Below are positions 11,250 to 26,330 of a stretch of DNA of 64,000 nt, in pieces (within the stretch, counting starts at the first letter, position 1; each line of letters begins with the position of its first letter). The translations under genes and the position numbers were made by a program. The notes below the pieces were generated by a model. It saw only the letters and a program-made list of their open reading frames with translations, was not told the origin of the DNA and made no database searches. The stretch covers positions 2,046,001 to 2,110,000 of the forward strand of contig NZ_CP017580.1 in assembly GCF_001806325.1 (NCBI RefSeq), written 5' to 3'. Source of the DNA: Curtobacterium sp. BH-2-1-1. GTDB lineage: Bacteria; Actinomycetota; Actinomycetes; Actinomycetales; Microbacteriaceae.

Positions 11250-12838
11250 GCCGTCGCCCGACGGGCCGCGCGGTCGGCGCGCTCGGTGCGTTCCCGGCGG
11301 AGGGTCTCCCGCACGTCCGCGAACGACTGCAGGACCCGGAACCGGCCGTCGACCCACACGGGCTGGAGCAGGCTCGTCGCCTCGTCCTCGGCGGTGGCCT
11401 GGTCGGTCTGGCGGATCTCGCCGGTCGCGTCGCGGTGCAGGGCGATCCGGCCCTTCGCGCTCTTCTTGCCGCTGCCCGTCTTCGGGTCCTTCTGGATGTC
11501 GACGGGCTCGCCGTCCACCAGCGCCCAGGTGGCCTTGACCGCGCTGCCGAGGTTGTCGCGGGTCATGTACTGGTACGTGTACGAGCCGATGCCGAGCACG
11601 ATGTTGTCGCTCGCGTAGCCCTTGGCGGCGAGCCGCTCGTAGATGCGGCGGGCACGGTCGAGGGTGATGCTGTCGCCGTAGATCACGCCGATGTGCTGGT
11701 CGAGGACCTTGAAGCCCTGGTCGTTCACGGTGTGCCCGAAGATCTCGTCGAGGAGTTCGACGACGCCCTTCTCCTCGTGGCTGCGGGCCGGGTCGGTCAG
11801 CGCCGCGGTGTCGACCCCGTGGACGGTGCCGGTGACGATGTCCACCGGGTCGCCCGAGTCCGGGCGGATGACGAGCTTGCCGTCGCGACCCGTGATGCGG
11901 TCCTTCAACTGCGGGAGCGTCTCGGTGATCACCTTGAAGAGGTCGAACCCGTCGCTCACGGCCGACACGATGCCCGTCGGGTACACGTCGAGGATCTGCT
12001 CGAAGGTCGCCAGCTCGCCCTCGGCGCCGCGCACGCACATCACGCTGTGCTCGGTGGCCGGGACGCTCGCGGCCACCCAGCCGTTGTCACCCGGGTAGTA
12101 GCGGTCGATGAAGTCGAGCGACGGCATCGAGTCGGTGCCGAGGAACGAGAGGAGGTGCCCGGCGCCACCGGCCGCGGCCGACTCGATGCTCGACTGTCCC
12201 CGGAAGGAGAAGTCGTGCGCGGCGAAGTCGATGCTGGCCGGGTCGGCGCCGGTGCGGGCGGCCCAGTCCTCCATGAGGTCGCGGTACTCGAGCGCCTTCG
12301 TCGCGACGGTCGACGGGTGCCAGATCGAGGCCGACAGGGCCGTCTCGATGTAGTTCGGCAGCCAGAAGAACTCGTCGACGGTGTTCTCGACGGTGAGGGT
12401 CGCGACACCGATCGGGGCGAGGGTGCCCTCGGGGAGCGCGCGGATCTCGAGCGGGAGGTACCCGAGGCGGTGGAGTGCCCGGACGTGGTCGGTGCCGATG
12501 TGGTTCGGGCCGAAGTACCCCTGCAGTGCCTGCTCGAACAGGCCGGCGACCTCGTCCTCGTCCGCGGCGAAGAACGGCGCCCACGCCTCGACGAGGGAGC
12601 GCTGGATGAACGCCTGCAGGCCGAACACCACGGCGTGCGTCGACTCGGGCATGTGCGCGTTCGAACGGTTCGTCCAGTTGATGAGGATCCGGGTGGTGCC
12701 GGCCGGGTAGACCTGCCGGTGCGAGTGCTTGTAGCCGTCGACGGCGAGGAGCGGGGCGATCGGGCTCTGGGCGGTGAGGCGGGGCGCGATGCCGGTGGTG
12801 CCGTCGGTGCCGGTCGTGGTGGTGTCGGTCTGCGTCAT
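11246..12838 (-). CDS. nadV: Nicotinamide (nicotinate) phosphoribosyltransferase, NAMPT family
   Basis: 530 residues, NAMPT-type phosphoribosyltransferase that joins nicotinamide and PRPP to give NMN. Family signs: DGYKHSHRQVYPAGTT at about 34-49, the TNRSN strand, WLPNYIETALSASIWHPSTVATKA, DFSFRGQSS, RPDSGDP (PRPP-phosphate loop), and GIGSYTYQY near the C-terminus. Length is typical of NAMPT (about 480-530), longer than the usual bacterial PncB, which favours nicotinamide over nicotinate. ATG 12838 overlaps the prs stop by four bases, and the stop overlaps nrtR. The first 25 residues are T/G-rich and unstructured. Confidence 0.9.
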   Translation of the reverse strand: MTQTDTTTTGTDGTTGIAPRLTAQSPIAPLLAVDGYKHSHRQVYPAGTTRILINWTNRSNAHMPESTHAVVFGLQAFIQRSLVEAWAPFFAADEDEVAGLFEQALQGYFGPNHIGTDHVRALHRLGYLPLEIRALPEGTLAPIGVATLTVENTVDEFFWLPNYIETALSASIWHPSTVATKALEYRDLMEDWAARTGADPASIDFAAHDFSFRGQSSIESAAAGGAGHLLSFLGTDSMPSLDFIDRYYPGDNGWVAASVPATEHSVMCVRGAEGELATFEQILDVYPTGIVSAVSDGFDLFKVITETLPQLKDRITGRDGKLVIRPDSGDPVDIVTGTVHGVDTAALTDPARSHEEKGVVELLDEIFGHTVNDQGFKVLDQHIGVIYGDSITLDRARRIYERLAAKGYASDNIVLGIGSYTYQYMTRDNLGSAVKATWALVDGEPVDIQKDPKTGSGKKSAKGRIALHRDATGEIRQTDQATAEDEATSLLQPVWVDGRFRVLQSFADVRETLRRERTERADRAARRATA

Positions 12839-13665
12839 CGGATCTGCTCCGTCAGGTAAGGGGTGAGTTCGATCGTGCGCAGGCCCTCGATGGCATTCTG
12901 CGCGGGGTAGGAGTCCGTCGTGACGATCTCCCCGAAGTGCTCGGCGAGCTGCGGGGCCCGACCGGAGAAGACGCCGTGCGAGACCCACAGGCCGAGGCGG
13001 TCCTTCGTCAGCCCCGTCGCGGTCGCGAGGCCCATGAAAGTGCCGCCGCCGTCGCAGATGTCGTCGACGACGAGCAGGCGACCGGTGTCCGGCAGCGGCT
13101 CGCACGTGAAGCCGTCGAGCTTGCCGGTGTCCGGGTTGCGGTGCTTCTCGGCGCGGAACACCGGCAGCCCGCAGGCGTCGGCGACGGCGGAGGCCCGCGC
13201 GACCGCGCCCTTGTCGGGGGCGATGATCCCGCTGTAGTCCGAGCCGGCGACGACCTGGTCGCGGACGACGGTCTCGCTCGTGACCACGGTCAGGCGCTCC
13301 ACCAGGTCGACGATCACCGGCGAGTGCGGGTCGAACGCGATGACCTGGTCGATCCCGAAGCCGTTGATGACGTCCGCGTAGACCTTCGCGCCGAAGGGGA
13401 GGCCGCGGTCCTGCCGGGCGCCGGGCAGGTACGGGACGAGGGCGACGGACCGGGATCCGCGCTGCCGGACGGCGTCCGCCCACATGCCGAGCATGAGGAG
13501 GTCGTCGCCGTTCGTGCCGCGCAGGGTCGCGATCTCGATGAGGTCCCCCGCGTCGGCGTCGTGTGCGACCTTGACGTGTGCTTCACCGGCGGGGAACCGC
13601 ATGGTGGAGAACGTCGGTGTCGCCTGGGTGCCCCGGGTGGTCCGGGTGCTGAGTTCGACTGCCAT
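12835..13665 (-). CDS. prs: Ribose-phosphate pyrophosphokinase, short NAD-salvage type
   Basis: 276 residues, makes PRPP from ribose 5-phosphate and ATP. Visible are the ATP-loop region (LVPYLPGARQDRG), FDPHSP, the IIAPDKGA stretch, the catalytic KHRNP flap and the PRPP-binding loop LLVVDDICDGGGTF. It is 40 or so residues shorter than housekeeping PRPP synthetases, which usually form regulated hexamers. Short forms like this occur next to NAMPT genes, and I infer it supplies PRPP directly to NadV. The frame contains ATG 13665 preceded by a TACGGT -10 box at six bases, so translation is probably leaderless. It is the first gene of the operon; repression is expected through the palindrome at 13687-13701. 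Confidence 0.9.
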   Translation of the reverse strand: MAVELSTRTTRGTQATPTFSTMRFPAGEAHVKVAHDADAGDLIEIATLRGTNGDDLLMLGMWADAVRQRGSRSVALVPYLPGARQDRGLPFGAKVYADVINGFGIDQVIAFDPHSPVIVDLVERLTVVTSETVVRDQVVAGSDYSGIIAPDKGAVARASAVADACGLPVFRAEKHRNPDTGKLDGFTCEPLPDTGRLLVVDDICDGGGTFMGLATATGLTKDRLGLWVSHGVFSGRAPQLAEHFGEIVTTDSYPAQNAIEGLRTIELTPYLTEQIR

Positions 13666-13715: not shown

Positions 13716-16700
13716 TCACGGGACCGGCACCTGCACCGACACCAGTTCGCCGTCACCGAGGTGCACCAGCGCGGAGCCGACCTGCACCCGTTCGACGATG
13801 CTGCTGCGCGGCAGACGCATGCCGAGCAGGTCGCCCTCGGTGATCGCCTGCGGGCTGAGGAGCGCGCCCGAGCGACGTCGCTTCATGTCCACCTGCCAGC
13901 CCGTGAACCCGACGCCGAACTCGGCCGTCAACCCCGCCGCGACGATGGCCTGGCCGTTGTCCGCCGCGCTCTTCACGAAGCCCTGCAGCCAGCTCTTCGC
14001 GGGTGCGTCCTTGACGAGCTCGGCATCGTCGATGACGAGGACCCGGCGGCCGGGTTGCCCGTCGAACAGCGGCGCGAGGTCGGCCTCGGTGACGTCGACG
14101 CCCTCGTGCGCGCCGAGGACGCCGGGCTCGGACGCGAGGGCGCGCAGGGGCGACTGCCGCGGGGTGACGAGCACGATCTCGCCCCCCTCGCGCAGCACCG
14201 ACCGTGCGATCGACAGCAGGACGGAGCTCCGACCGGACTTCGCGGGACCGCCCACGACGAACGAGCCCGCGGCGGCGAGGTCCGGCCCGATGGCGGTGAG
14301 GTCGTCCCCGCCGATGCCGACGAGGCCGAACAGGGCGGCGTCGTCGTCGCGCATCTCCCACGCCCGGTCGAACGGCACGGGCCCGGACAGCTGGTCGACG
14401 CGGAACGGCCGACGGGCACGCTCGACCGCGCGGTCGCGCTCGGTCGCGAAGGTCGCGAGGGCGGTGATCGCCGCGGCCTGCGACTGACCGGTGCCGGCGG
14501 CGGCGAGCAGGGCGATCTGCGTCTCGGTGGCGGACTCCGACGCGAACGCCCGTCCGTCCGGGACCTGCTCGGGCAGCTTGCGGGGGTTGAGCGACGCGAG
14601 GCCGTAGTCGCCGCGGTCGGAGAGCCGGAGGACGAGCTTGTCCTCGACCAGGGTCGCCATCCGGCTCGACAGGAGCTGACGGTCCCCGGTGACCACCAGG
14701 TGGATGCCGACGCTCGCCCCTTCGCGCAGGAGGGTCATCACCTGGTCGGTCGGTGCACCGTGGTCGAGTTCGCCGAGCGAGCCGACGAACCCTTCCCACC
14801 GGTCGAGCATGAACACGATGTGGGGGAGCCGGTCGGCCGGCACGACCGCGGCCGCGCGCTGCTCGACGATGCTCGCGAACCCGCCGTCGGCGAGGACCTG
14901 CTGCCGGCGGGCGAGCTCCTGGGTGAGCTTCGTGAGGAGACGCTGCGCGCGTTCGGTCTGCACGCGCTGCACGACGGCGCCGGCGTGCGGGAGGGCCTGG
15001 ATCGGCAGCAGCGCTCCGTTGCCGCAGTCGAGCGCGTACACGTGGACGTCGGCTGCCGAGGTGTTCCGGGCGACCGCGGCGGCGATCGTGCGGAGCACCT
15101 GCGACCGACCGCTCCGCGGAGCACCCACCACGTAGAGGTGCCCGTCCGAGTCGAGGTCGAGGCTCCGGACCCGCTGCGCCTGCTCGGCCGGGAAGTCCTG
15201 CAGCGCGAAGGGCAGCGGGCCGACCCGGGCATCGGTCGTGCTGCTGTCGTCGAGTTCCCACGCCCGGTCGTTCAGGTCGGTGAAGAGCAGCGTCTCCGGC
15301 AGGGCGTCGAGCCACGGACGGTAGGGCGCCGGTCCACCGAGCTCGGTCGCCGCCTCGGCCACCGCGCCGACCAGTTCCTGCAGGTCGGTGCGTTCCTCTG
15401 CCTGCAGCTCCTTCGACTTCGGTGGCGCCGGTGGGGTGGTGCCGAGCGACGACCACGAGACGGCTCCGGCCCAGACCTGCTTGCGTCCGGTCGACAGCCC
15501 CGGACGCCGGCCGCCCACCCGACCGGCTTGGAACGGCAGCAGCGCGCCGGCCCCGAGCCGGATGTACCCGCGGCCGGGCGTGCTCTTCTGGATCTGCGCC
15601 GCGTCACCGGCGTCGATGACGTCGGTGCTCTCGCTCGAGTCCGTGACCCGGAGCGCGATCCGGAGGTTGGTGTTGGCGCGGATGTCGTTCGACACGACAC
15701 CCGTCGGACGCTGCGTGGCGAGGATCAGGTGGATGCCGAGCGACCGTCCCCGCTGTGCGATGTTGACCAGGCCGGTGACGAAGTCCGGGAGTTCGCGCAC
15801 GAGACTCGCGAACTCGTCGATGACGATGAGCAGACGCGGCATCGGCGGCAGCGGCTCACCGCGGACGAGGCGGTCGACGTAGTCCTCGATGTCCTTCGCG
15901 GCGGCGTCGGCCAGCAGGTGCTCGCGGCGACGGAGCTCGGCGCCGAGCGACTCGAGGGCGCGTTCCACCAGGTGCGTGTCGAGGTCCGTCACCATGCCGA
16001 CCGTGTGCGGCAGCGGCGCGAAGTCGCGGAACGCCGCACCGCCCTTGTAGTCGATGAGGACGAAGTTCATGCCCTCCGGGGTGTTCGTCGCCGCCAGGGA
16101 CGCGACGATCGTCTGCAGGAGCTCGGACTTCCCCGACCCGGTCGTGCCGGCGACCAGGCCGTGCGGGCCGTCCCTGCGGAGGTCGAACGCGAACGGGCCG
16201 TCGAGGCTCTCGCCCACGACCACCTCGGTGGTGCGCGCACGCACGTTCCACTTGCCCGTGATCGCCCGCGCCGTCGGCGGTTCCAGCAGCATCACGTCGA
16301 GCAGTCGCGACGACGACGGCAGCCCACCGGCATCGCTCTCGTCGTCGGCGTCGACCATCGGCGCCACCGCCCGGGCGACGGTCTCGAACCAGCCGTCCGG
16401 GATGCGGTCCGGTCGGACGTCGGTGACCGTCGCCTGACGCTGGGCGGCGACACGGATGCGCTCCGGACCCACCGTGACGACGACCGAGCACTCCTCGGGC
16501 AGCAGGCGTGCCTCTTCCTCGATGCAGATCGCCCGGACACCGACCGCGGGGCCCTCCTTGAGGATGCGGATCAGGCCCGGCAGTGCGCGCAGCCGTCGAG
16601 CGCCGTCGAGCACCACGACCACGTCGGGACCGGGGATCCCCCGCACGTTCGACTCGCGCATCGCCCGCTGCCGTGCGTCGATGAGCTGCCCGATCTCGGC

Positions 16701-18086
16701 GACGCGCGCGCCCAGCGTCTCGGCGTCGTTGCCGATCGCGATGACGGCGTCCTGCCCGAACCCCGGTCGCGCCTGTGGCACCCAGCGCAGCCAGGCCCAC
16801 TCGTCGGCGGACTGCGCGTCGGTGAGCACCACGAACTGGGTGTCCCGCGGGCTCTGCAGCACCGCGAGCTGCGCCACGAGCCACGACGTGAGGTGCCTGG
16901 TGTGCTCGTCGCGTCCGGCGACACCGACCACCCCGTGCTCGCCGAGGTCGACCACGACCGGCACGTCCTCGGCCAGCTTGTCGACCGCCCGCCGGTGCTC
17001 CAGCGCTGCCGGGTCCTCGAGCACGACGCCCGACGGCACGTCCGCCGTGCCGACGCGCAGCGTGAGGTAGTCGGGGTCGGTCCGCCGACGCTCCCACAGC
17101 CGGGCGCGACGGCGCAGGGCGATGTCGAGCACCGTCGCCGGATCGGGCGCGCTGGTGCGTGACTCGCGCTGGTACCGGACCACTGCCTCCAGGGCGTCCG
17201 CCTCGACCGCCTTCTTCGTCTCCTCGTACTCGGCCACCCGCTGCCGGTGCGTCTTCTTGCCGTTGCGGCGGTCCCACCAGGCGTTGCCGAACATGATGAT
17301 CGGCGACATGAGGCCGAAGGCCAGGTACGCGACGTTGTGGAAGATCGAGATCATCACGGCCGCCATGCCGAGCGGCGCGAGCGCCGCGATGATCGGGATG
17401 GAGCGGCGCGACTGCTGCCCCGGCGCGGCCGGCAGCTTGAAGACCGTCGGCGTCTCCTCCGGCAGCAGGCGCGGCGGCCGGGTGTAGTCGAGCGTCCCGC
17501 CACCTGGTGTCAGCGTGATCGCCGCCCGGTCGGCGTCCGGGACCGCGACCGACAGCAGCGTGTCGCCGATCGTGACGACGCTGCCGGGCTCGACGGACGT
17601 CTCCTCGTCGAGCTCCGTGCCGTCGAGGAGGACGCGCGAGCCGCGCGTCGGGATGATCGAGAACCGCCGGTTGAGGTCGAGGCGCAGGATCGCCGCGTAC
17701 TCCGGGGCGGTGCGGTCCGGCAGGTGCACCGTGGCGTCCGGAGCGGAACCGACGTGTGCGATGCCCGCGTCCAGCACCACGACCGTGCCGGCTCCGGGCC
17801 CGCCCACGATGCGGACGCTCGGCAGGTCGGCCGGCAGCGGGAGGACCGGCGCGGGGGCGCCGAAGGTCAGGCGGGACCCCTCGAGCAGGACACCGTCACC
17901 GAGCCGGGCGTGCGGGGTCGTCGGGACGGCGTCGACCGCGACCTCGACGATGGACTCGGCGCTCAGGCCGAAGCGACGGGCGACGATCTCGACGACCCCG
18001 CCGAGGACGGTGTCCTCGTCGCACTCGACCACGAAGTCCGCGGTGGCGTCGGTCGGCAGGTGGGTCGCGGTGAACGTCAGGCGCAC
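13716..18086 (-). CDS. essC: Type VII secretion motor ATPase, EssC/EccC-like with FHA domain
   Basis: 1456 residues, the membrane ATPase that drives type VII secretion. Order: N-terminal ubiquitin-like or linker region, FHA domain (about 70-160, GGPGAGTVVVLDAG onward), two close membrane helices (about 229-275), then three FtsK/SpoIIIE-type ATPase modules. Module 1 is intact: Walker A GTTGSGKS near 645 and Walker B LLIVIDEF near 758. Modules 2 and 3 have arginine for the Walker A lysine (GAPRSGRS near 990; GPAKSGRS near 1280), which suggests they bind substrate signals or ATP without fast hydrolysis, as in EssC. The single chain with FHA resembles Firmicutes EssC more than the split mycobacterial EccCa/EccCb. 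GTG 18086 is chosen because the family begins with the RLTFT strand; the upstream frame is shadow-like. Confidence 0.92.
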   Translation of the reverse strand: MRLTFTATHLPTDATADFVVECDEDTVLGGVVEIVARRFGLSAESIVEVAVDAVPTTPHARLGDGVLLEGSRLTFGAPAPVLPLPADLPSVRIVGGPGAGTVVVLDAGIAHVGSAPDATVHLPDRTAPEYAAILRLDLNRRFSIIPTRGSRVLLDGTELDEETSVEPGSVVTIGDTLLSVAVPDADRAAITLTPGGGTLDYTRPPRLLPEETPTVFKLPAAPGQQSRRSIPIIAALAPLGMAAVMISIFHNVAYLAFGLMSPIIMFGNAWWDRRNGKKTHRQRVAEYEETKKAVEADALEAVVRYQRESRTSAPDPATVLDIALRRRARLWERRRTDPDYLTLRVGTADVPSGVVLEDPAALEHRRAVDKLAEDVPVVVDLGEHGVVGVAGRDEHTRHLTSWLVAQLAVLQSPRDTQFVVLTDAQSADEWAWLRWVPQARPGFGQDAVIAIGNDAETLGARVAEIGQLIDARQRAMRESNVRGIPGPDVVVVLDGARRLRALPGLIRILKEGPAVGVRAICIEEEARLLPEECSVVVTVGPERIRVAAQRQATVTDVRPDRIPDGWFETVARAVAPMVDADDESDAGGLPSSSRLLDVMLLEPPTARAITGKWNVRARTTEVVVGESLDGPFAFDLRRDGPHGLVAGTTGSGKSELLQTIVASLAATNTPEGMNFVLIDYKGGAAFRDFAPLPHTVGMVTDLDTHLVERALESLGAELRRREHLLADAAAKDIEDYVDRLVRGEPLPPMPRLLIVIDEFASLVRELPDFVTGLVNIAQRGRSLGIHLILATQRPTGVVSNDIRANTNLRIALRVTDSSESTDVIDAGDAAQIQKSTPGRGYIRLGAGALLPFQAGRVGGRRPGLSTGRKQVWAGAVSWSSLGTTPPAPPKSKELQAEERTDLQELVGAVAEAATELGGPAPYRPWLDALPETLLFTDLNDRAWELDDSSTTDARVGPLPFALQDFPAEQAQRVRSLDLDSDGHLYVVGAPRSGRSQVLRTIAAAVARNTSAADVHVYALDCGNGALLPIQALPHAGAVVQRVQTERAQRLLTKLTQELARRQQVLADGGFASIVEQRAAAVVPADRLPHIVFMLDRWEGFVGSLGELDHGAPTDQVMTLLREGASVGIHLVVTGDRQLLSSRMATLVEDKLVLRLSDRGDYGLASLNPRKLPEQVPDGRAFASESATETQIALLAAAGTGQSQAAAITALATFATERDRAVERARRPFRVDQLSGPVPFDRAWEMRDDDAALFGLVGIGGDDLTAIGPDLAAAGSFVVGGPAKSGRSSVLLSIARSVLREGGEIVLVTPRQSPLRALASEPGVLGAHEGVDVTEADLAPLFDGQPGRRVLVIDDAELVKDAPAKSWLQGFVKSAADNGQAIVAAGLTAEFGVGFTGWQVDMKRRRSGALLSPQAITEGDLLGMRLPRSSIVERVQVGSALVHLGDGELVSVQVPVP

Positions 18087-18232
18087 GCGGCACCTGCCAC
18101 GTCGTGGGTCCTGGTCGTCGCGGAGCACCCCGTCGAGGCCCCCCGCAGCGTCGTGCTGCCGCTCATGGGTCGATTCTCGCAGGTTCCTGCGACGTGCAGG
18201 CCGGGTTGCGTCCGGCTTGTGGATGGGCGGTC

Positions 18233-18247
18233 GGACTGGAGGCGCGG
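18233..18247 (+). repeat. Copy of 15-bp dispersed element upstream of essC
   Basis: GGACTGGAGGCGCGG, 14 of 15 identical to the element and identical to the arm at 51786-51800. It stands alone here, between essC and the divergent gene at 18322. Confidence 0.55.
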
Positions 18248-18308
18248 TGCAGGGGAACGGGCTCTGCTCACCCATGCGTGCGGTTGCGGGCTCAGCGAGG
18301 CGGGTCGC

Positions 18309-18314
18309 TATCCT
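18309..18314 (+). promoter_or_regulatory. -10 box TATCCT, leaderless gene
   Basis: TATCCT ends seven bases before GTG 18322; no Shine-Dalgarno sequence is present. Confidence 0.5.
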
Positions 18315-18321
18315 TCGTGCT

Positions 18322-18945
18322 GTGCACGGCGCCCCACCGGAGATCCTGGAGTTCAGTCCGGTGCAGCTCTCCAAGTGGCGGATCATCTTCGGCGGTCTGG
18401 GGCCGACAGCGCTCTGTGCACTGATCGGCGGCATCGTCGTGCTCTTCCCTGCTGGCAGGAGCGCCGCGATCGGCCTGGCGTTCTACGGTGCGCTCTACGC
18501 GGTCATGGTGTGGCCGGCGATCGGCCTCGCCGTGTGGCAACGCAGGGTCGCGACGATCCGGATCACCGACGATGCGGTCGAGTTCCGAGGGATCGTCCGG
18601 CGCCGACTCCTCCCGCGGGACGCGGACCTTCGCTGCCTTCGCTCGGCGTTCGACAACTGGCCCGCCAACGAGATCCTCTTCATCGTCCACGGCGGCCGTA
18701 GGAGGCGTCGGATCAGGATCGACTCCTGGAACTGGACCACCCCGAGGATCCGCGAGATCAGCGGGGTGCTGCGTGCCCGGACGCGGTTGCCGAGCAAGGG
18801 GAAGAAGATCGAGCAGCTGGTACCGGGCGCCACCCGCTACTGGGAGCGGTCGATCGTGAAGCTCTTCGCGCTCATCTTCGCGGGGTGTTTGTTGGCGATC
18901 ATCGCGGTCGTCATCGTGTTCGGGTTCATCATCCCGATGGGGTGA
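18322..18945 (+). CDS. Membrane protein with PH-like middle, unknown function
   Basis: 207 residues. Two hydrophobic helices at about 22-42 and 46-66 (IFGGLGPTALCALIGGIVVL; IGLAFYGALYAVMVWPAIGL) precede a short beta-rich soluble part (about 70-125, VATIRITDDAVEFRGIVRRR) that resembles bacterial PH-domain-like modules. One more helix lies at the C-terminus (about 180-203). GTG 18322 is chosen for the -10 box seven bases upstream; ATG 18274 is in frame but would include a run-through region with no support. It sits alone on the plus strand inside the secretion locus, between essC and the minus-strand operon, so a link to secretion is possible but unproven. Confidence 0.78.
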   Translation: MHGAPPEILEFSPVQLSKWRIIFGGLGPTALCALIGGIVVLFPAGRSAAIGLAFYGALYAVMVWPAIGLAVWQRRVATIRITDDAVEFRGIVRRRLLPRDADLRCLRSAFDNWPANEILFIVHGGRRRRRIRIDSWNWTTPRIREISGVLRARTRLPSKGKKIEQLVPGATRYWERSIVKLFALIFAGCLLAIIAVVIVFGFIIPMG

Positions 18946-18987
18946 CACCGCACCGCGCAGCGTCTGGACATCTGTCCCGACGGGTCG

Positions 18988-19233
18988 TCATCGTCCGCCA
19001 CGCGCTCGACGGGATGACCGCAGGTGGCGGCTCCCGATGCTGACGCCGACGACCAGCGCGAACGCCCACACGATGTACCGGATGAGCCACGCGGTCGGTC
19101 CGTCCCAGGGGCCCGTGTCGTACTTGCCTCCTGGGAGGAGTGAGACGCCGACACCGATCGCGAGCACGATCACCGTGTCACGGGCGAATGCGACCCAGCG
19201 GCGTCCGGGCGTGAGGGGGCGTCGTCGTGTCAT
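18988..19233 (-). CDS. Small two-helix membrane protein
   Basis: 81 residues. Helix 1 is about residues 17-33 (DTVIVLAIGVGVSLLPGG), helix 2 about 45-62 (IRYIVWAFALVVGVSIG). Both ends are basic (MTRRRPLTPGRR; RHLRSSRRARGGR), so the two termini are probably cytosolic. ATG 19233 has a good ribosome site (AAGGAAG). Last gene of the minus-strand secretion operon, 34 bases after the preceding stop. Small basic two-helix proteins occur in other secretion loci, but no family is recognised. Confidence 0.75.
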   Translation of the reverse strand: MTRRRPLTPGRRWVAFARDTVIVLAIGVGVSLLPGGKYDTGPWDGPTAWLIRYIVWAFALVVGVSIGSRHLRSSRRARGGR

Positions 19234-19267
19234 GGCTTCCTTGGTGGTGCGGTTGTCGTCATTGACG

Positions 19268-19852
19268 TCATTGGGAGTCCGGGTTGAGCACCAGCCCGAG
19301 CGCGAACTGATCGACCAGTGGCGCAGCGAACGACTCGTCAGCACGTTTCGGGATGAAGGTGGTCAACACCGCGGTCAGCGGATCGGGCAGCTGCGCGATC
19401 GGCTGCACCCAGCGGATCGTCGTGGCCGGGACCGCACGGCGCACGAGTGAGCGTCCTGGTGTTTTCGCCCGGTCGAGGATGCGCGTGGCCGGGCCGAGCG
19501 CCGTCACGCAGGTCGACACATCGGGATCGCCGGTTCGTCCGGCGAGCGGGAGCAGTGCGTCGTCGACCGCCTGGGCAGCAGAATCCAACCCAGGGAAGTA
19601 CTGGATGACCGTGTACGCGAGTACCTCGACCGTCGGAGCGTCCGTCGTCAGGACGAAGAAGTCGTGGGCATCGACCTCGTTCCGCAATTGCGCCAGTTTG
19701 GTCATGGTCGATTCGAGCGACGATTCCAGGCGCTTCGGGACCGGCCGCTGGAGGTGACTGATCACGTTCGCTGTCGCGGCGCGCCCGGTGGTGGTCGGGT
19801 CGCCCTCGATGAACTTCGTCCAGGCGTTGACGTAGTCGAATTCGAGTCCCAT
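19268..19852 (-). CDS. Secretion-locus paralogue A, unknown family
   Basis: 194 residues, no signal peptide or membrane segment. It shares a layout with the genes at 19909 and 20579: N-terminal AWT near residue 10, a charged helix, then a strand pair like DFFVLTTDAPTVEVLAYTVIQYFPG, a G-x-ATRIL strand, an IRW strand and TFIPK near the C-terminus. ATG 19852 has a ribosome site (GGAGAG). The three genes lie in tandem and are clearly duplicated and diverged. Cytosolic location and the position in a type VII locus suggest a substrate chaperone, adaptor or immunity role. This is inference only. Confidence 0.82.
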   Translation of the reverse strand: MGLEFDYVNAWTKFIEGDPTTTGRAATANVISHLQRPVPKRLESSLESTMTKLAQLRNEVDAHDFFVLTTDAPTVEVLAYTVIQYFPGLDSAAQAVDDALLPLAGRTGDPDVSTCVTALGPATRILDRAKTPGRSLVRRAVPATTIRWVQPIAQLPDPLTAVLTTFIPKRADESFAAPLVDQFALGLVLNPDSQ

Positions 19853-19908
19853 CAGGTGCTCTCCGTCCTCGGTTGCCCGGTCACTTCGGCAGTCCTCAGC
19901 GACGACGC

Positions 19909-20484
19909 TCACGCCCAATCGACACGCACGTCGCGCAGAAGCTCGTCGAGCATGGGCCGAGCGAGGACGCTGTCGTTCTCGTCGCGGACGAAGAACGACA
20001 CGACCACCGTGAGCTCGTTCAGGCCGTCGACGATGGGGATGATCGCACGAACGACCTGCATCACCGGCCGCCCCCGGCCGCCGGCGCTGCGTTCCCGCAT
20101 CTCCACGAGCGTTGCTCTGCCGAGGGGCAGATCCAGTGTCCCGACACTGGCGTCGCCGATGCCGGACGCCCGCGGTGCACGAGCGTCGTCGATGAAGGTG
20201 TCCGCGCGGTCGACACCGGCGACGGTGTGCACGACCGCGTACGCGATCGCTCGGACCGTCGGTGCCGTGGTCGAGAGCACGAAGCAGGTCTCCGCCTTCG
20301 CCGCGGTCTGGAAAGCGGCGATGTCGCGCACGACCGTTCGGAGCACAGTGCGTTCTCGACGCTTCGGCCGCTGCTTCGCCTGCGCGAGAGCGTGCTCCAC
20401 CGCTGCGTCGGTGACCTCGTCGATCGCACCCTCGTCGTCGAGCAGCGTCCAGGCGCGGTTGTAGTTCCACAGCAAGCGAATCAA
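19909..20484 (-). CDS. Secretion-locus paralogue B, unknown family
   Basis: 191 residues. Conserved with its two neighbours: NRAWTLL near residue 9, an R/K-rich helix (KQRPKRRERTVLRTVV), the core CFVLSTTAPTVRAIAYAVVH (about 68-87), LGRATLVEMRERS, and VVSFFVRDEN. The start is TTG 20484, read from the GAGGGG ribosome site six bases upstream. The spacing to its neighbours (94 and 56 bases) is wider than elsewhere in the operon. Function unknown; see the paralogue at 20579. Confidence 0.82.
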   Translation of the reverse strand: MIRLLWNYNRAWTLLDDEGAIDEVTDAAVEHALAQAKQRPKRRERTVLRTVVRDIAAFQTAAKAETCFVLSTTAPTVRAIAYAVVHTVAGVDRADTFIDDARAPRASGIGDASVGTLDLPLGRATLVEMRERSAGGRGRPVMQVVRAIIPIVDGLNELTVVVSFFVRDENDSVLARPMLDELLRDVRVDWA

Positions 20485-20578
20485 TCAAGTCCCCTCGTTG
20501 CACCGCACGCGACCGCTCGAGGCATCGCGGTCGGTGTTCGGTCTGTGACCCGGACGCCGCCGTGCTCAGCAACCGGAC

Positions 20579-21145
20579 TCATCGCGCCGAGACATCCTGT
20601 ACGAGCCGATCGATCATCGGCAGCGCGACAGGCAGGTAGAGCTCGTCGGGGATGAAGGACGACTGCGCAACAGCCAGGTCGTGTCCGTGGCTGTCGATCC
20701 GGATGATCCACCGCACGATCGTCTGCAGACTGGACTTGCGACCTTCACCGATCCGCTCACGCGTCAGTATGCGGGTTGCTTCCCCGACCGCGAGTTGGTG
20801 ACGACTCACGTCCGCGTCACCGAGGCCAGAGGGCCTCGAGGCGAGAGCGCTCTCGACGAACTCGTCCACGAGGTGCGCTCCCGGCGACGAGTGCACGAGC
20901 GTGTAGGCGATCACCTGCACTCTCGGCGTGGTGCTGCAGAGCGCGAAGCAGGACTCGGCCCGGACCTCGTCCTGCAGCCGCGCCAAGTCTTCCATCCGCG
21001 AGCGAACCGATGACCGCTCTCGTCGCGTCACCTTCTGCTGAGCCTGCGCCACGGCTTCGCTCGTGGCCAGATCTGCGACCATCTCAGGATCGCCGTGTTC
21101 CAGCAGCGTCCAAGCCCGACTGTATGAGTACAGGACCTCGGTCAT
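20579..21145 (-). CDS. Secretion-locus paralogue C, unknown family
   Basis: 188 residues. Nearest to paralogue B: SRAWTLLEHGDPE at the N-terminus, TRRERSSVRSRMEDLARLQ, core CFALCSTTPRVQVIAYTLVH, GEATRILTRERIGEG, VRWIIRID and SSFIPDE. ATG 21145 overlaps the stop of the membrane protein upstream by four bases, so the two are translationally coupled. The conserved core strand pair and the C-terminal acidic motif suggest one alpha-beta fold of about 190 residues. Resemblance to LpqN- or EspG-like folds cannot be shown by eye. Confidence 0.82.
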   Translation of the reverse strand: MTEVLYSYSRAWTLLEHGDPEMVADLATSEAVAQAQQKVTRRERSSVRSRMEDLARLQDEVRAESCFALCSTTPRVQVIAYTLVHSSPGAHLVDEFVESALASRPSGLGDADVSRHQLAVGEATRILTRERIGEGRKSSLQTIVRWIIRIDSHGHDLAVAQSSFIPDELYLPVALPMIDRLVQDVSAR

Positions 21146-22614
21146 TCGTCACCTCTCTGCGCCCCGGTACGAAGCCACCGGACGAATCCGAGCGGCCGGT
21201 GGCCGCGTTCGGCCAGCCGCCTTCGGCTCATGAGCCAACTGCCGATGACGAAGGCACCGGCGAAGAGCGCTGCGTCGATGGCGCCCAACCAATTGTCTCT
21301 GTGGAGAAACCACCCGAAGAGGGCTCCGCCAGCAAGGACGGCGATCGCAATGTTCCGCTGGCCCCGAGTCGGGAACCGCCCTGGAGTCGGTGCCTGGTCT
21401 TGGACGTGTCGGGCGACGGGGATCCGGGTTGCAGACTCGATGATGATGGTCGCGAACACGGCGACGACCACCGCTATCGCGAGCACCCATCCGATGATGC
21501 GCAGGGGCAGCGCCTCCTCAGTCATCGGCACGGACGCAACCATTCCGCAGAAGAACGCTGCCCCAGCGACCAGGGGTATCGGCTGGACCCCGAGCCGACC
21601 GTTGGCGAGTGACTCGACCGAGATCGACCTGCTCCGTTGCGGATCGAGGCTCCTGCTCGCAGCCCATTCCGTGGTCGAAGTCGAGGAGGTCAGGATTCCG
21701 CGACCCGTGAGCCACTCCCACAGCTCCGACCGCCGAACCTCATCCGGGAACCACGCCCACGCCGGAAGTTGCGCGCGGATGGTCCCCGTACCGTCGCGGA
21801 GCACGGCGGCAGCGCCGTATTCACCTTGAACGAACTCTGCGCGGCGGAGAGCCGCGTCGCCTGAACCGGCCTGGTCGACCGACAGCAACTGCTCGGCACC
21901 TTGACCGTCGCGGAGCACGACGAGCTCGTCCCGGAGACCGATGCAAGCCGTCCTACGGAACCACGAAGGACCGTCCGCCGGTGCGATGCCGTGGTCTTCG
22001 ACGCGCTTGCGCCGGACACGTCCAGACAACGCGACGAACACTGCCGTCGCGAGCCCCAGGAGGACGGTAGTCTTGATCGCGACCCAGACAGCGTCGGAAT
22101 CGGGCCCGTTCATCAGCGTGGTGACCAAGGGTCCGTAGACGACGGCGAGGAACGCGAGACCACCGCCGATCACGATGGCCGTCATCAAGGCTGTCGAGCG
22201 GGCTGCGCGGTGACCCGCGGGCCGAACCAGATTCGCCTCTCGTACCAGAGCTCCGACACTGCTTTCGTCATGACGCGGGAAACGTTCGAGGAGCACGCTC
22301 AGCCCACTTGACCGCAAGGCAAGCTCCCTTGACGTCACCGTGACCGGCTCCATCCACCAGTCGTCGACAGCAAGCAGCCATGATCCGTTGTCACCACTGA
22401 GCAGGATGCCTCCGTTGCCAGCTGTCAAGGACACTGTCGGGGGGAGTTCGGTCCAATCGATGAACGTCGCGTTGCGGAGCGTCGAGGTGACGTTCCGGCG
22501 GCCCCGGTCCGACTCCGCGACCAAGGCGTCGTCCACCAGCCACAGTTGGCGTGTGTCGAAACGCGCAGCCCATCGATCGCTGGTCAACGCGGCTCGGGCG
22601 AGCGGCTCAGTCAT
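21142..22614 (-). CDS. Six-helix membrane protein of the secretion locus
   Basis: 490 residues. A soluble N-terminal part (about 1-140) precedes helices at about 143-163 and 177-196. Then come a second soluble part (about 205-340), helices near 345-362 and 372-392, and a final pair near 417-433 and 445-463. Lysine and arginine cluster on the same side of each pair, so the soluble parts are probably cytosolic. It is not recognisably EccB, EccD, EccE, EssA or EssB, but its place next to WXG100-family genes and between coupled genes makes it the best candidate for a membrane channel component partnering EssC. ATG 22614 overlaps the preceding stop by eight bases. Confidence 0.82.
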   Translation of the reverse strand: MTEPLARAALTSDRWAARFDTRQLWLVDDALVAESDRGRRNVTSTLRNATFIDWTELPPTVSLTAGNGGILLSGDNGSWLLAVDDWWMEPVTVTSRELALRSSGLSVLLERFPRHDESSVGALVREANLVRPAGHRAARSTALMTAIVIGGGLAFLAVVYGPLVTTLMNGPDSDAVWVAIKTTVLLGLATAVFVALSGRVRRKRVEDHGIAPADGPSWFRRTACIGLRDELVVLRDGQGAEQLLSVDQAGSGDAALRRAEFVQGEYGAAAVLRDGTGTIRAQLPAWAWFPDEVRRSELWEWLTGRGILTSSTSTTEWAASRSLDPQRSRSISVESLANGRLGVQPIPLVAGAAFFCGMVASVPMTEEALPLRIIGWVLAIAVVVAVFATIIIESATRIPVARHVQDQAPTPGRFPTRGQRNIAIAVLAGGALFGWFLHRDNWLGAIDAALFAGAFVIGSWLMSRRRLAERGHRPLGFVRWLRTGAQRGDE

Positions 22615-23080
22615 CGAACCTGATTATCGCAGCCAGTTGATCGACGATGGCGATCACGGCCTCCACATTGACTGCTTCCATCGACTCCGTCGAGAGGACC
22701 GCGATCGAGTCCGCGACGTGCCACGACCAGGAAGCATGCGTTGCGACGACCATCCCACGCTCGGGGAAGGGCTGGGGGAACCGTTGGACGAGCCGGAGAG
22801 CGGGGCCGGCGTGAGTCTGGATGATGCGTTCGTCGGGATCTTCGAGCACATCTGAAGCGCGGAGCCCCCGACGCACCTCACCCGGGCTGCGTCCGTCGAG
22901 CGGAACGACCCTGCCCACCAGCCATCCGATCGGACCACGGCGTTCGTCCACGACGAGCCATGCGGCGTTCGCTGCGCCGCTCAGAAGCAGTTCGGCGAGC
23001 GGATCCAAGTCATGTTCGCCGTCGCGGACGAGTGGAAGTGGAACCAGGGCGGGCGTGTCTGGCCAGCGAATCGAGATCAT
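22607..23080 (-). CDS. Small cytosolic protein of the secretion locus, unknown family
   Basis: 157 residues, no membrane segment. The C-terminal half (GPALRLVQRFPQPFPERGMVVATHASW...VEAVIAIVDQLAAII) has the same strand-strand-helix ending as the protein encoded at 23077, suggesting a related fold with a different N-terminal half. ATG 23080 overlaps the upstream stop by four bases. It is part of one coupled run with its neighbours on both sides. Confidence 0.8.
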   Translation of the reverse strand: MISIRWPDTPALVPLPLVRDGEHDLDPLAELLLSGAANAAWLVVDERRGPIGWLVGRVVPLDGRSPGEVRRGLRASDVLEDPDERIIQTHAGPALRLVQRFPQPFPERGMVVATHASWSWHVADSIAVLSTESMEAVNVEAVIAIVDQLAAIIRFDD

Positions 23081-23727
23081 GCGGTCGTCCAGGCGAATCC
23101 GCTCATCAGGATGTCGAAATGTGCCACCCGCTGATCAACGAAGTCGGTGCCGACTCCTCGGAACGAGACGACGACGAATGTCCCTGACTCATCCGGCACT
23201 CTGATGAGGTATTCGACGCGAGTCTGGTCGAGCGTTCCTGCTGCGTCCTCATCGCCTCGCAGGGCGCTCGTGTAGGCAAGGAGTCCGTCCGGCGTCGTCG
23301 TGTCGCCCGAAGCGCCCGCGAGCGTCGAAGAGATGCTGTCTCGCGTACGGACCGCCGGACCCGCTGGCAGCTCGATCAGATCGCCGCCCAGGCCCGCGGC
23401 GAGGTCGTCGGAACGCAGCTCAGCAACCTTCGGCCCGAGGTACGCGGCCGTGACGGTGATCATCATGTTCGCCCGGTAGCCGCCGAACTGCCCATCGAAA
23501 AAGAAGACGTCAGCCGTACCGATGTCACGCAGACCGGAGAGGGCGCGTTCGATGTCGCGTTCTGCTCTCTGGCGAGCGACAACCCGATCTCGTTCAGGCA
23601 GGTCCGAGCGCTTCGCGAGCATGGGGATGTGCCGCTCGACGAACCGTTGAGCCATCGACGGTCCAGCGTCTGCGGTCCGGTAGCGGTACCACCCGTCAGG
23701 CGTCAGGAAGCGGTAGGCCGTCGTCAC
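23077..23727 (-). CDS. Secretion-locus accessory protein, distant relative of the paralogue set
   Basis: 216 residues from GTG 23727, which overlaps the stop of the substrate gene upstream as GTGA; longer starts are open but lack this coupling. Sequence: YRFLTPDGWYRY near the start, a long charged helix (VARQRAERDIERALSGLR), a strand pair (DVFFFDGQFG, NMMITVTAAYL), then VEYLIRVPDESGTFVVVSFRG and a final helix. This order of elements (GW motif, helix, two strands, loop, two strands, helix) parallels the three 190-residue paralogues downstream, although identity is low. Being directly coupled to the WXG-type substrate it may be that substrate's chaperone or, if the substrate is toxic, its immunity protein. 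Confidence 0.82.
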   Translation of the reverse strand: MTTAYRFLTPDGWYRYRTADAGPSMAQRFVERHIPMLAKRSDLPERDRVVARQRAERDIERALSGLRDIGTADVFFFDGQFGGYRANMMITVTAAYLGPKVAELRSDDLAAGLGGDLIELPAGPAVRTRDSISSTLAGASGDTTTPDGLLAYTSALRGDEDAAGTLDQTRVEYLIRVPDESGTFVVVSFRGVGTDFVDQRVAHFDILMSGFAWTTA

Positions 23728-25010
23728 AGTGACCCGACGTGGATCTCTGTCTTCGAGTGCCAGTAGCTGTTCCAACCGGATTGAAGGTCGGTCTTCACGT
23801 CGCCCAGGGTCTGGATCGTCGACATGTTGCCGAGCGCCTGCGTCTCGATCGTCACGAGCGACGGCTTGACTGCCCTGATGTAAGCCTCACGCATGAGCGG
23901 TGCATTCCACGCGAGCTTCCGGACCATCACGGCCTCGGCGAGTCCGCCTGAGATCAGGTTGTCCGCGAGCCGGACAGAGCGGCCGTTCTCGACTGCCTTC
24001 GCAGCGTCGACTCCTCGAGTCGCCCCTCGGAGGAACGCGTTCGTCTCCTCGGCGACGGACCCGCCCCTTGCCACAACGCCAGCGGCGGCTTCTGAAGCCG
24101 TCTTGGTACCCACAGTCGCCCGGAGCATCTGCATTGCTGGCTTGGCTGCCGAGGCCGCTTTCAGCCCGACGGCGGAGAGTGCGAACATCACTGCGTCGTT
24201 GGTGACGTCGCCAGCCGTGGCATCACCGGCCACCGCCTGCGCTGAGGTCAGCAGGAGCTTGGTACCCGCTGCCACGAGCCCGATCACCGCGATGGCGAAG
24301 AGTGCACCGGGGATGAACAGGGCGGCGAGGACGGTCGCGAGCAGCAGTACCGGGCCGAGGGCGTCCAGGGCGTCCTTGATCACGTTGATGACGCCCCGCG
24401 CCCCGTGGATGGCCTGCTTCACGTGGTCGAACCAGCCGTCCTTCAGCCCGTCGTCCGCGCCCTGTCGGATGCGATCGGCGACCCGACCTGCCAGCTCCCC
24501 GTACTCGCCCTCTTCGCCGAAGGGCCCGGCGAGCCGGTGGATGATCGCCTTCGCCGCGTCGATGTCGCTCTGCGCCGCACTCAGCGCCCGGTCCTGCGCG
24601 TCGACCTGGTCCTGGTGTTCCGGACTGTCGGCCTCGGCCGTGATGGTCTGGTTCGCCGCAGCGCGGTGCGCGTCCCGCGCGTCCTGCGCCTGCAGCAGGG
24701 CTGCGTCGGCCTCGCGCTGGAGCCCCTCGAGCCCGTCCGCCCACTGGTCGAGCGCGGCGGCGAGCTCGGTGTAGCGGCCCTTGGCCTTCTCGATGGCACC
24801 GGCGAGGTCTCCGGCGGAGTCGCGGAACTTCGTCCCCGACTCGCTCTCCCAGCCCTCGCCGTCCTTCAGGCTGTTGAGGCGGTTGACCTGCTCGGTGATG
24901 GCCTGCTCGATCGAACGGGCACCGGAGGCGGACTGCCGGATCTCGGCCGGGTCGCCGGGCACCGGGTCGAGCTGCATGTCGACGGCGCTCCAGTCGCTGG
25001 GCCGTGCCAT
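23724..25010 (-). CDS. Type VII secretion substrate-like protein with WXG/LXG-type N-terminus
   Basis: 428 residues. The N-terminal 180 residues are an all-helical coiled-coil region with a WES turn (GEGWESESGTKFRDSAGDL, about 52-70), as in WXG100 and LXG proteins. Next come a strongly hydrophobic pair (about 217-262, VLLLATVLAALFIPGALFAI...LLLTSAQAV) and a C-terminal 160 residues of mixed helices that match no toxin motif I know. ATG 25010 overlaps the upstream stop by one base (TGATG). Possible roles are a secreted effector with a pore-forming or membrane domain, or a membrane-bound scaffold. The coupled gene at 23077 would fit as chaperone or immunity partner. Confidence 0.82.
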   Translation of the reverse strand: MARPSDWSAVDMQLDPVPGDPAEIRQSASGARSIEQAITEQVNRLNSLKDGEGWESESGTKFRDSAGDLAGAIEKAKGRYTELAAALDQWADGLEGLQREADAALLQAQDARDAHRAAANQTITAEADSPEHQDQVDAQDRALSAAQSDIDAAKAIIHRLAGPFGEEGEYGELAGRVADRIRQGADDGLKDGWFDHVKQAIHGARGVINVIKDALDALGPVLLLATVLAALFIPGALFAIAVIGLVAAGTKLLLTSAQAVAGDATAGDVTNDAVMFALSAVGLKAASAAKPAMQMLRATVGTKTASEAAAGVVARGGSVAEETNAFLRGATRGVDAAKAVENGRSVRLADNLISGGLAEAVMVRKLAWNAPLMREAYIRAVKPSLVTIETQALGNMSTIQTLGDVKTDLQSGWNSYWHSKTEIHVGSL

Positions 25011-25303
25011 CAGCTGTCCTTCCCGAGGATCTTGTTCGCGAGCTCGACCTCGGTCTGGGTGAAGCCGTCGTGCGCGCTCTCGGCCATCTCGGCCACGGCC
25101 TTGATCGACTCCTGGAGGCGCCCGCGCCGGATGTCCCAGTTGCCGGCGAAGTCGTCGATCGCACTGCCGACCGTCATCGAGCCGATGCCGGTCTTGTAGT
25201 CGGATGCGGCAGAGGCGACGTGTTGGAAGTCGCCGTGCAGTCTCGAGAGGTCGGATGCGAGATTCCCGATCAGGTCGAGATCGAGCTTGATGGTGCCGGC
25301 CAC
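25010..25303 (-). CDS. WXG100-like small helical protein
   Basis: 97 residues, all helical, with a central GNWDIRRGRL turn: W-x-I-R in place of the W-x-G motif. Length, helix-turn-helix form and position between a WXG100 gene and a WXG/LXG-type gene identify it as a type VII secretion substrate or partner. In this class, two such proteins form an antiparallel heterodimer; it probably pairs with the N-terminal domain encoded by the next gene, which is coupled by a one-base overlap. Confidence 0.82.
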   Translation of the reverse strand: MAGTIKLDLDLIGNLASDLSRLHGDFQHVASAASDYKTGIGSMTVGSAIDDFAGNWDIRRGRLQESIKAVAEMAESAHDGFTQTEVELANKILGKDS

Positions 25304-25409
25304 GGTTCCCCCGGTGGATTCCTACTGCTGCTGGTCGTTCGACGCCGCCCCTGCGGCGAGAGCGGTGGCCGGCACCCCCAGGCGCCGGCCACCGTCGTGC
25401 TTGTCCTGA

Positions 25410-25703
25410 CTAGCCGATGCTCGAAGCGAGCTGCTCGTCCGTCGACTCGAGCGTGTTCGCCGCGCTCTCGAGGAACCCGGCCATGCCGTCGATCGCCTGG
25501 ATCGTCTGCGTCGCGCCGGAGTTGAACTCCGAGTACGTCGCGTCGAAGGCCTTGGACGACTTGTCGGTGACGTAGCCCGACGACACGAGGTTGTCGATCT
25601 GGCTCTTGAGCTGGCTCAGCTGGTCCTCGATGGACTTCTGGCCGTTGCGCAGCTGCGAAGCCTGGTTGCGGAGATCGTCGTAGGTGACGTTGACGTTTGC
25701 CAT
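25410..25703 (-). CDS. WXG100-family (ESAT-6-like) protein
   Basis: 97 residues, two amphipathic helices joined at VSSGYVTDKSSKAF, where GYV takes the place of the W-x-G turn, a variant common in this order. No signal peptide, as expected for the family, which is exported by the EssC motor. ATG 25703 is chosen because GGGAGG lies eight bases upstream; ATG 25709 would leave only two bases. It is the first gene of the minus-strand secretion operon and is followed by a 106-base gap, so it may be made in excess over the later genes. Confidence 0.9.
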   Translation of the reverse strand: MANVNVTYDDLRNQASQLRNGQKSIEDQLSQLKSQIDNLVSSGYVTDKSSKAFDATYSEFNSGATQTIQAIDGMAGFLESAANTLESTDEQLASSIG

Positions 25704-25820
25704 GTGCATACCCTCCCGATGCGGTATTTGATGTACCGGGAGCCCCCGGCGGTTCGACGATACTTGATTCCGTTGCATCTCGCACCAGGTGGGGACAAGA
25801 ACCAGAACGAGGGGTACACC

Positions 25821-26330
25821 GTGGCACGACGTCGCAAGGACGAGGGGACACCGGAGCGTCCGGTCGTCACCCACGCCGAGGTCGAGCGCGATCGACAGGC
25901 CGGTCACCTGTCGCGGGCGTGGGTGCTGCCGAGCGCCCCGGTGTCCGACCGCGAGCCGGACGCCGTGGTGCACACCGACCAGCCGCTGCCCACGATCGGC
26001 GTGGTGCCGCGGCTCGTGCTCGAGGTCGCACCGGGCAACGTGGTGCCGCTCGACCAGCCGGTGGTCCTGGGGCGCAAGGTCCAGACGGCACCCGGGCGGC
26101 GTGCGGTGCTGCTCGACGACCCGGGTCGTTCGGTGTCGCGCGAGCACGCGGCGATCCGGCCGACGGGCGACGGTGGACTCGTGGTCGAGGACCTCGGCTC
26201 CGCGAACGGCACGGTCGTGGTCCGGGCGTCCGGGGCGCAGGAGCCGAGCGTGGGTGGCGCGCAGGTCGTGGCCCGACCCGGTGACGTGGTGATGGTCGGC
26301 GACTACGCCGTCCGGGTCCTCGCCGGCTGA
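25821..26330 (+). CDS. FHA-domain protein
   Basis: 169 residues. The C-terminal half (about 75-168) is a forkhead-associated domain with canonical phosphothreonine-binding residues: LGRKVQTAPG, GRSVSREHAAI and DLGSANGTVV. The N-terminal 70 residues are charged and probably flexible. GTG 25821 follows a GAGGGG ribosome site; the in-frame ATG 25704 would overlap the divergent WXG100 promoter. Divergent from the WXG100 gene, 117 bases away. FHA proteins are regulators in several actinobacterial and proteobacterial secretion systems, and EssC here also has an FHA domain, so a shared threonine kinase is expected elsewhere in the genome. Its end overlaps the next gene's end by 28 bases on opposite strands. 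Confidence 0.9.
   Translation: MARRRKDEGTPERPVVTHAEVERDRQAGHLSRAWVLPSAPVSDREPDAVVHTDQPLPTIGVVPRLVLEVAPGNVVPLDQPVVLGRKVQTAPGRRAVLLDDPGRSVSREHAAIRPTGDGGLVVEDLGSANGTVVVRASGAQEPSVGGAQVVARPGDVVMVGDYAVRVLAG

Follow-up and report, generated by a model that had tools for sequence, protein, structure and literature searches.

The 64,000-nucleotide stretch of Curtobacterium sp. BH-2-1-1 DNA studied here (the window; positions 2,046,001 to 2,110,000 of a 3.80-Mb genome in a single contig) carries a locus of the type VII secretion system (T7SS) type, in which the gene for an EssC/EccC-type motor (essC) is found with genes for WXG-type proteins, an FHA-domain protein, an effector (lxg), membrane proteins and small proteins that we assign below to two families, A and B (Table 1). 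A preliminary description of this DNA had listed a 1456-residue EssC-like motor, an FHA protein, small WXG proteins and membrane proteins, and all of these genes were recovered with our own codon-usage gene caller, which missed or merged some genes. The locus is a T7SS in the broad sense, in that an FtsK/SpoIIIE-type motor is encoded with a WXG100 protein. The minus-strand genes from 25303 to 20579 had been said to be coupled, and this is right because neighbouring genes overlap at all five junctions between wxg2 and pA (by 1, 4, 4, 8 and 4 bases).

Table 1. Genes of the T7SS-type locus, with positions in the window.
Gene and assignment	Position	Strand	Remarks
essC, EssC/EccC-type motor	13716-18086	minus	1456 aa, GTG start
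207-aa membrane protein, no assigned function	18322-18945	plus	three predicted helices; match in 4 of 9 relatives
tm2	18988-19233	minus	81 aa, two predicted helices; RDD-like match weak and below cut-off
pC, family A	19268-19852	minus	194 aa, predicted Mog1/PsbP fold
pB, family A paralogue	19909-20484	minus	191 aa
pA, family A paralogue	20579-21145	minus	188 aa; joins the family via pB/pC
tm6, polytopic membrane protein, candidate immunity protein	21142-22614	minus	490 aa, fast-changing
im157, probable short diverged family B member	22607-23080	minus	157 aa
im216, family A, candidate Eag-like chaperone of the hairpin	23077-23727	minus	216 aa; adjoins effector
lxg, putative polymorphic effector	23724-25010	minus	428 aa; N-terminal part of WXG type, followed by a hydrophobic hairpin (about 207-245) and a variable C-terminal end
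wxg2, WXG-like protein	25010-25303	minus	97 aa; probable targeting partner of effector
wxg1, WXG100 protein, conserved core	25410-25703	minus	97 aa
FHA-domain protein, conserved core	25821-26330	plus	169 aa; divergent from wxg1

The EssC-type motor and its partners

The motor matched FtsK_SpoIIIE at 191.5 bits and comprises a ubiquitin-like domain (residues ∼1-80), an FHA-like stretch (92-181), a single clear membrane-spanning segment (230-248) and three ATPase-type domains. Only the first of these (D1) has an intact Walker A motif (GTTGSGKS), together with an intact Walker B motif, and the further two ATPase-like domains carry a Lys-to-Arg change in Walker A. The description of EssC as FHA-tagged needs qualifying: the FHA-like match there (Yop-YscD_cpl, 26.3 bits, E 9e-6) lies below the Pfam cut-off of 33.2 bits. 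At the N-terminus Pfam gave scattered weak ubiquitin-like matches, and a profile of EssC residues 1-85 retrieved from the PDB engineered ubiquitins (E 1.6e-5 and 1e-3), natural ubiquitin-fold chains at E 0.017 or weaker and mycobacterial Snm4 at E 0.55; comparison with the EccD ubiquitin-like domain by hhalign gave 86% (E 5e-6). T7SSa and T7SSb keep ubiquitin-like and FHA-like modules on separate subunits; the EssC chain unites predicted modules of both kinds.

Among the partners, the FHA gene product matched PF00498 at 36.9 bits (cut-off 20.7), and the three proteins initially classed as WXG100 or WXG-LXG types fared unequally. The assignment is clear for wxg1 (Pfam WXG100, 67.6 bits against a cut-off of 27.3; TIGR03930, 51.7 against 44.85) and marginal for lxg, which just passed WXG100 at 27.6 bits and fell just below the T7SS_signal cut-off (26.9 of 27), but a Pfam scan gave no match to the LXG domain (PF04740) in this 428-residue effector, and wxg2 had only sub-threshold matches to DUF6317 and DUF6507 (E about 0.02).

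As had been proposed for a minimal T7SS-type locus, the motor is of its own kind: it scored below the curated cut-offs for EssC (TIGR03928, 576 of 778.4 bits), EccCa (417 of 509 bits) and EccCb (307 of about 346 bits; TIGR03924/TIGR03925). A motor from the same genus (genome G031) gave 752 and 650 bits on the EccCa and EccCb models. A quick tree was made from 81 motors; it includes no Firmicute EssC, carries a long-branch warning and keeps one in four rows from locus L138 on. In it, the window's clade (47 rows) stood apart from a clade B (16 rows, without A genes) and also from the EccC rows and a 13-row clade in which six members have A. A 353-356-residue protein beside two of the clade-B essC genes was considered as a mycosin and gave no mycosin match.

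These scores bear on whether the locus is an ordinary, incompletely recognised T7SSa or T7SSb, with its remaining components encoded at other sites of the genome or diverged beyond recognition, a reading that concerns the machine and overlaps with those weighed below. The EccB search lends it some room, having given no signal in any of 66 Curtobacterium genomes or in the controls and hence lacking a working control, as do the genome searches, which did not cover EccE or EsaA; for EccE, Pfam/NCBIfam scans of the locus proteins gave no match, and no whole-genome search was made. It is nevertheless improbable in our judgement, given the missed motor cut-offs, the lack of any match in this genome to the EccD/YukD ubiquitin-like domain (PF08817), which is found in 22 of the 66 Curtobacterium genomes, and the absence of EssA and EssB from the genome in a search with Bacillus subtilis as a working control. 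The full EccD model likewise found nothing in this genome in a search in which no control matched; a G031 protein matches it at 66.9 bits. The proposed lack of EccD and of a mycosin at the locus was thereby borne out, the best mycosin match in the genome (49.1 of 278.75 bits) lying far from the locus.

With the T7SSb of Bacillota (EssC, EssA, EssB, EsaA, EsaB and LXG toxins with Lap/Esx partners) the locus shares a single-chain EssC-like motor with an FHA-like part, a WXG100 protein and a polymorphic effector with a small helical partner, but EssA, EssB and the YukD/EsaB domain were not found in this genome, EssC has an N-terminal ubiquitin-like domain, and there are partners with a predicted Mog1/PsbP fold (see below). 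T7SSa (ESX), which is also found in other Curtobacterium, has in common with the locus an FtsK/SpoIIIE-type motor and WXG proteins, and the EssC N-terminus resembles the EccD ubiquitin-like domain; unlike in T7SSa, no EccD domain was matched in the genome, the EccCa and EccCb cut-offs were not reached and no mycosin was found at cut-off.

Core and cassette genes across Curtobacterium

An essC at least about 92% identical to that of the window was present in 10 of 66 Curtobacterium genomes, including this one, and the remaining genomes had more distant essC relatives (34-51%) or FtsK-type matches only. One of the ten (G164) carries an EccD-type domain elsewhere in its genome. All nine close relatives (loci L102-L110) have essC (92-99% identity), wxg1 (98-100%) and the FHA gene (88-96%), as well as counterparts of wxg2 (29-94%) and of the effector (30-70%); WXG genes are thus kept where essC is kept, in agreement with the preliminary description. 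The flank on the recQ side is the same as in the window in the eight relatives where it is visible, and prs/NAMPT come next after essC in six of the nine; in the window, NAMPT-like and PRPP-synthetase-like genes (11246-13665; named by reading the sequence) adjoin essC. Because the locus recurs in nine other Curtobacterium genomes, with the recQ-side flank alike in 8 of 8, we conclude that it did not arise by chance.

The cassette of the window is common to five relatives, in which residues 1-200 of lxg are 78-95% identical and residues 301-400 only 23-34%, with wxg2 at 79-95%, im216 at 34-43%, im157 at 34-43% (the highest over 72 residues) and tm6 at 26-37%. The conserved N-terminus and variable C-terminus of lxg are what would be expected of a polymorphic toxin whose ends can be exchanged. 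In four relatives (G170, G208, G162 and G207) the cassette is a different one, in which WXG2 and the effector are shorter and tm6 has no match. G170, one of the four, nevertheless retains pB and pC (97% identical), its EssC being 99% identical; a full-length pC counterpart (69-97%) is present in six of nine relatives, including G170 and G208, and a close pB counterpart (89-97%) in two of nine. In G162 there are only short pA/pC-type fragments (L109, 8226-8438), which suggests that the paralogue array has decayed there. From these comparisons, the core is EssC, WXG1 and the separate FHA protein, and the rest is a changeable cassette; the pattern therefore takes tm6, tm2 and the paralogues off the list of core parts.

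The idea that the membrane proteins are machine parts was not supported. The supposed six-helix protein, tm6, is a polytopic membrane protein with five strong helices by hydropathy, but the sixth is at most weak. It is 25-36% identical in five of the nine relatives and has no match in four, essC being 92-99% identical across them; tm2 has no match in three of nine. As a core channel, tm6 was rejected on relatives' counterparts of only 25-36% in those five and no match in the other four, and a database search gave only a 95% copy (E 1e-3) among 7,995 candidates scored. We consider tm6 a candidate immunity protein, this being more likely than a part in the machinery.

Families A and B beside hairpin effectors

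An iterated profile search with a seed from another genome gathered im216, pA, pB and pC together with 13 further members of the family, encoded in 11 loci; the set searched comprised 666 proteins, nearly all encoded within 9 kb of essC. A profile built from these 13 members only matched im216 at E 2.7e-8, pB at 5e-5, pC at 1e-4 and pA at only 0.22; among 1,000 shuffled proteins of the window, the best value was 0.034. Identity to pC is 32% for pA and 29% for pB. By these profile matches, the four proteins are assigned to one family, A. Since the iterated sets of A and B share 64 members, the two families were compared in one round with disjoint sets, which gave 86% (E 5e-6), with 0% for an A-effector control. 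Orthologues of im157 matched B with 68% probability (E 5e-5; disjoint sets), and im157 is probably a short diverged member of family B, the sister of A, its place being only probable because part of the helical segment is lacking.

AlphaFold models of pC (A) and of a single B protein, which comes from a different genus, show a Mog1/PsbP fold, and the same fold is predicted for im216 and im157 from these modelled members of their families. The fold matches the Eag chaperones of the type VI secretion system (T6SS) and also the T6SS immunity proteins Tsi3, Tli4 and TplEi. At the level of sequence, the Eag family DUF1795 was matched by none of 17 A1 members or 18 A7 members, PDB searches with A or B profiles gave no informative result, and A and B were rejected as known machine parts in that neither had a match at Pfam or NCBIfam cut-off. 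The array first described as uncharacterised paralogues now has a family and a fold predicted for it. By hydropathy, the N-terminus was hydrophobic in 0 of 91 A and 0 of 40 B proteins. One 366-residue protein (L069, 4709-5809) has a family B domain behind several transmembrane helices, a fusion hinting that family B may act at the membrane.

We then surveyed the best 80 of at least 552 essC relatives, with Curtobacterium loci L127-L131 and L137 dropped as duplicates and L199 without a usable open reading frame. These 80 loci include Curtobacterium, Frigoribacterium, Cryobacterium, Streptomyces, Catenulispora, Kineosporia and Actinoplanes, and modules of wxg2, effector, A and B recur among them, sometimes twice per locus. 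The locus is not limited to Microbacteriaceae, as the module also accompanies essC relatives in Streptomyces, Kineosporia and Actinoplanes, and by these comparisons we regard it as a real, fairly widespread T7SS variant. One plasmid-sized contig (L117, G194:C1; 163,762 bases) carries a 47% identical essC, an effector and an A gene.

A hydrophobic hairpin was detected by hydropathy in 111 of 113 effectors, partly by construction of the effector profile. A lies within five genes of 79 of the 101 effectors with room downstream, and over 133 loci, duplicates dropped, it was present in 68 of 89 with the effector type versus 1 of 44 without. Because most of the effector profile derives from loci in which A had been noticed beforehand, we also counted the 73 loci unused for profiles (A in 39 of 57 with the effector versus 1 of 16 without). 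Where the locus holds an effector, 80 of 91 A genes are at most three genes away from it, compared with 43% expected, and 78 of those 80 lie on its strand. None of the 14 clade-B essC loci examined had an A or B match. Since A is absent from 43 of 44 loci without the effector type and from these 14 loci, we conclude that the presence of A depends on the effector and not on the motor.

The same absences tell against the idea that A and B are general adaptors tying any effector to EssC, much in the manner of EspG or EsaE, rather than hairpin chaperones. Globular chaperones are known T7SS parts (PMC10765036), A genes stand beside essC and FHA in L036 and L037, pC is kept beside another cassette in two relatives, and B covaries with the effector N-terminus (below). 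A and B resemble EspG and EsaE as effector-associated partners of a T7SS substrate, but their models matched Mog1/PsbP chains, EspG not being among the matches listed and its likeness not having been compared directly. On balance we find the adaptor role quite unlikely.

Effector ends were also scanned. In the domain scan the end of the window effector showed no known domain, and the effector gave no PAAR match. The effector of L035, which has an A gene near, ends in an ADP-ribosyltransferase domain (42.4 bits); that of Kineosporia locus L201 has RHS repeats and core, with an A gene near on the other strand; and two more RHS effectors (L187 and L198) have no A within five genes. Apart from L035 and the RHS effectors, the longer effectors scanned had no toxin domain. 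The neighbour of the L035 effector, tried as an ADP-ribosylglycohydrolase immunity protein, gave no Pfam, NCBIfam or convincing PDB match.

Candidate roles of A and B, and other genes

Covariation was compared between the partner proteins and the parts of effectors of 340-620 residues. Over 68 effector-A pairs, the distances between A proteins gave partial rank correlations of 0.34 with the hairpin, 0.18 with the N-terminus and 0.15 with the C-terminus, following the hairpin over the N- and C-terminus with bootstrap values of 0.96 and 0.985. As a control, WXG2 (99 pairs) followed the effector N-terminus (0.43; bootstrap 1.0 and 0.995), and B (36 pairs) gave 0.29 for the N-terminus, 0.23 for the hairpin and 0.02 for the C-terminus. 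The closer tie of A to the hairpin than to the C-terminus speaks for A as a chaperone rather than as an immunity protein. The poor alignment of the effector C-terminal region (17% mean identity) handicaps the comparison with the C-terminus.

The competing proposal, that A and B are immunity proteins and pA, pB and pC an orphan-immunity array like the Staphylococcus esaG/tsaI strings, draws on several observations: in the six type-I loci A and B are as divergent as the effector C-terminus, extra A copies outlive a cassette swap, the fold is shared by Tsi3, Tli4 and TplEi, non-identical immunity genes have been described in strings in Firmicute T7SS (PMC9484751), and fusions of PsbP/MOG1 domains to immunity proteins of the SuFu type have been reported (PMC3482391). 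We nevertheless consider it unlikely, given the covariation of A with the hairpin over the 68 pairs, the finding that one family goes with effectors with unlike ends, and the apparently cytosolic nature of A and B, which would fit poorly with a toxin that reaches membranes from the outside.

The chaperone role is modelled on the Eag proteins (DUF1795: EagT6/PA0094, SciW and EagR1), which are encoded beside T6SS effectors with transmembrane helices, some of them with RHS repeats, in effector-specific copies (PMC7773334; PMC4524185). A and B are likewise small proteins of predicted Mog1/PsbP fold beside effectors with transmembrane helices, with effector-specific copies and some RHS effectors, and the Kineosporia RHS effector with A near echoes the T6SS RHS effectors that need Eag proteins. 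Unlike Eag, A and B have no DUF1795 match and are two sister families beside WXG-type T7SS effectors in Actinomycetota; the window effector also differs from T6SS Eag cargo in its WXG-type N-terminus and lack of a PAAR match. We infer from the covariation that A may bind the effector transmembrane helices, as Eag does.

The computation supports the split into core and cassette, the polymorphism of the effector, families A and B with their fold, and the association with hairpin effectors. We think it rather likely that the locus encodes an actinobacterial T7SS with a single motor, which exports polymorphic toxins that insert into membranes and are assisted by Eag-like chaperones. The fuller proposal has in our view about an even chance: a distinct single-motor T7SS branch in Actinomycetota, with A and B as a Mog1/PsbP-fold pair of cytosolic, Eag-like hairpin chaperones and a motor bearing ubiquitin-like and FHA-like modules. 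In such a system, with EssC, WXG1 and the FHA protein as its conserved core, WXG2 would bind the helical N-terminus of the 428-residue effector and target it to EssC, and the hydrophobic hairpin would be kept soluble before export. On the grounds of predicted fold, operon position and covariation, im216 (A), probably with im157 (B), would wrap the hairpin in the cytoplasm, as Eag does for type VI effectors. After export, the hairpin would insert in the target membrane and the variable C-terminus act there or beyond; tm6 would be the likely immunity protein, and pA, pB and pC additional genes of family A, probably either remnants of former cassettes or partners of other effectors.

In open-licence PubMed Central literature we found no link of Mog1/PsbP or Eag proteins to T7SS, no mention of EspG together with Mog1 or PsbP, and no account of a T7SS keeping membrane-inserting effectors soluble before export. 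The PsbP/MOG1 domain has been called diagnostic of type VI secretion (2025, PMC12419801); if the assignment made here is true, its tie to T7SS effectors would break that rule and suggest that two unrelated secretion systems share one fold for transmembrane cargo. Families A and B give one frame for many unnamed genes beside essC in Actinomycetota.

Elsewhere in the window, probable NIS-type siderophore genes lie at 4426-9661, with diaminobutyrate-decarboxylase-like, amine N-monooxygenase-like and SbnF-like synthetase members, all below NCBIfam cut-offs. At 46820-49264 a large protein with a terminal LAVTG-type sortase motif (22.6 bits, cut-off 27) is encoded.
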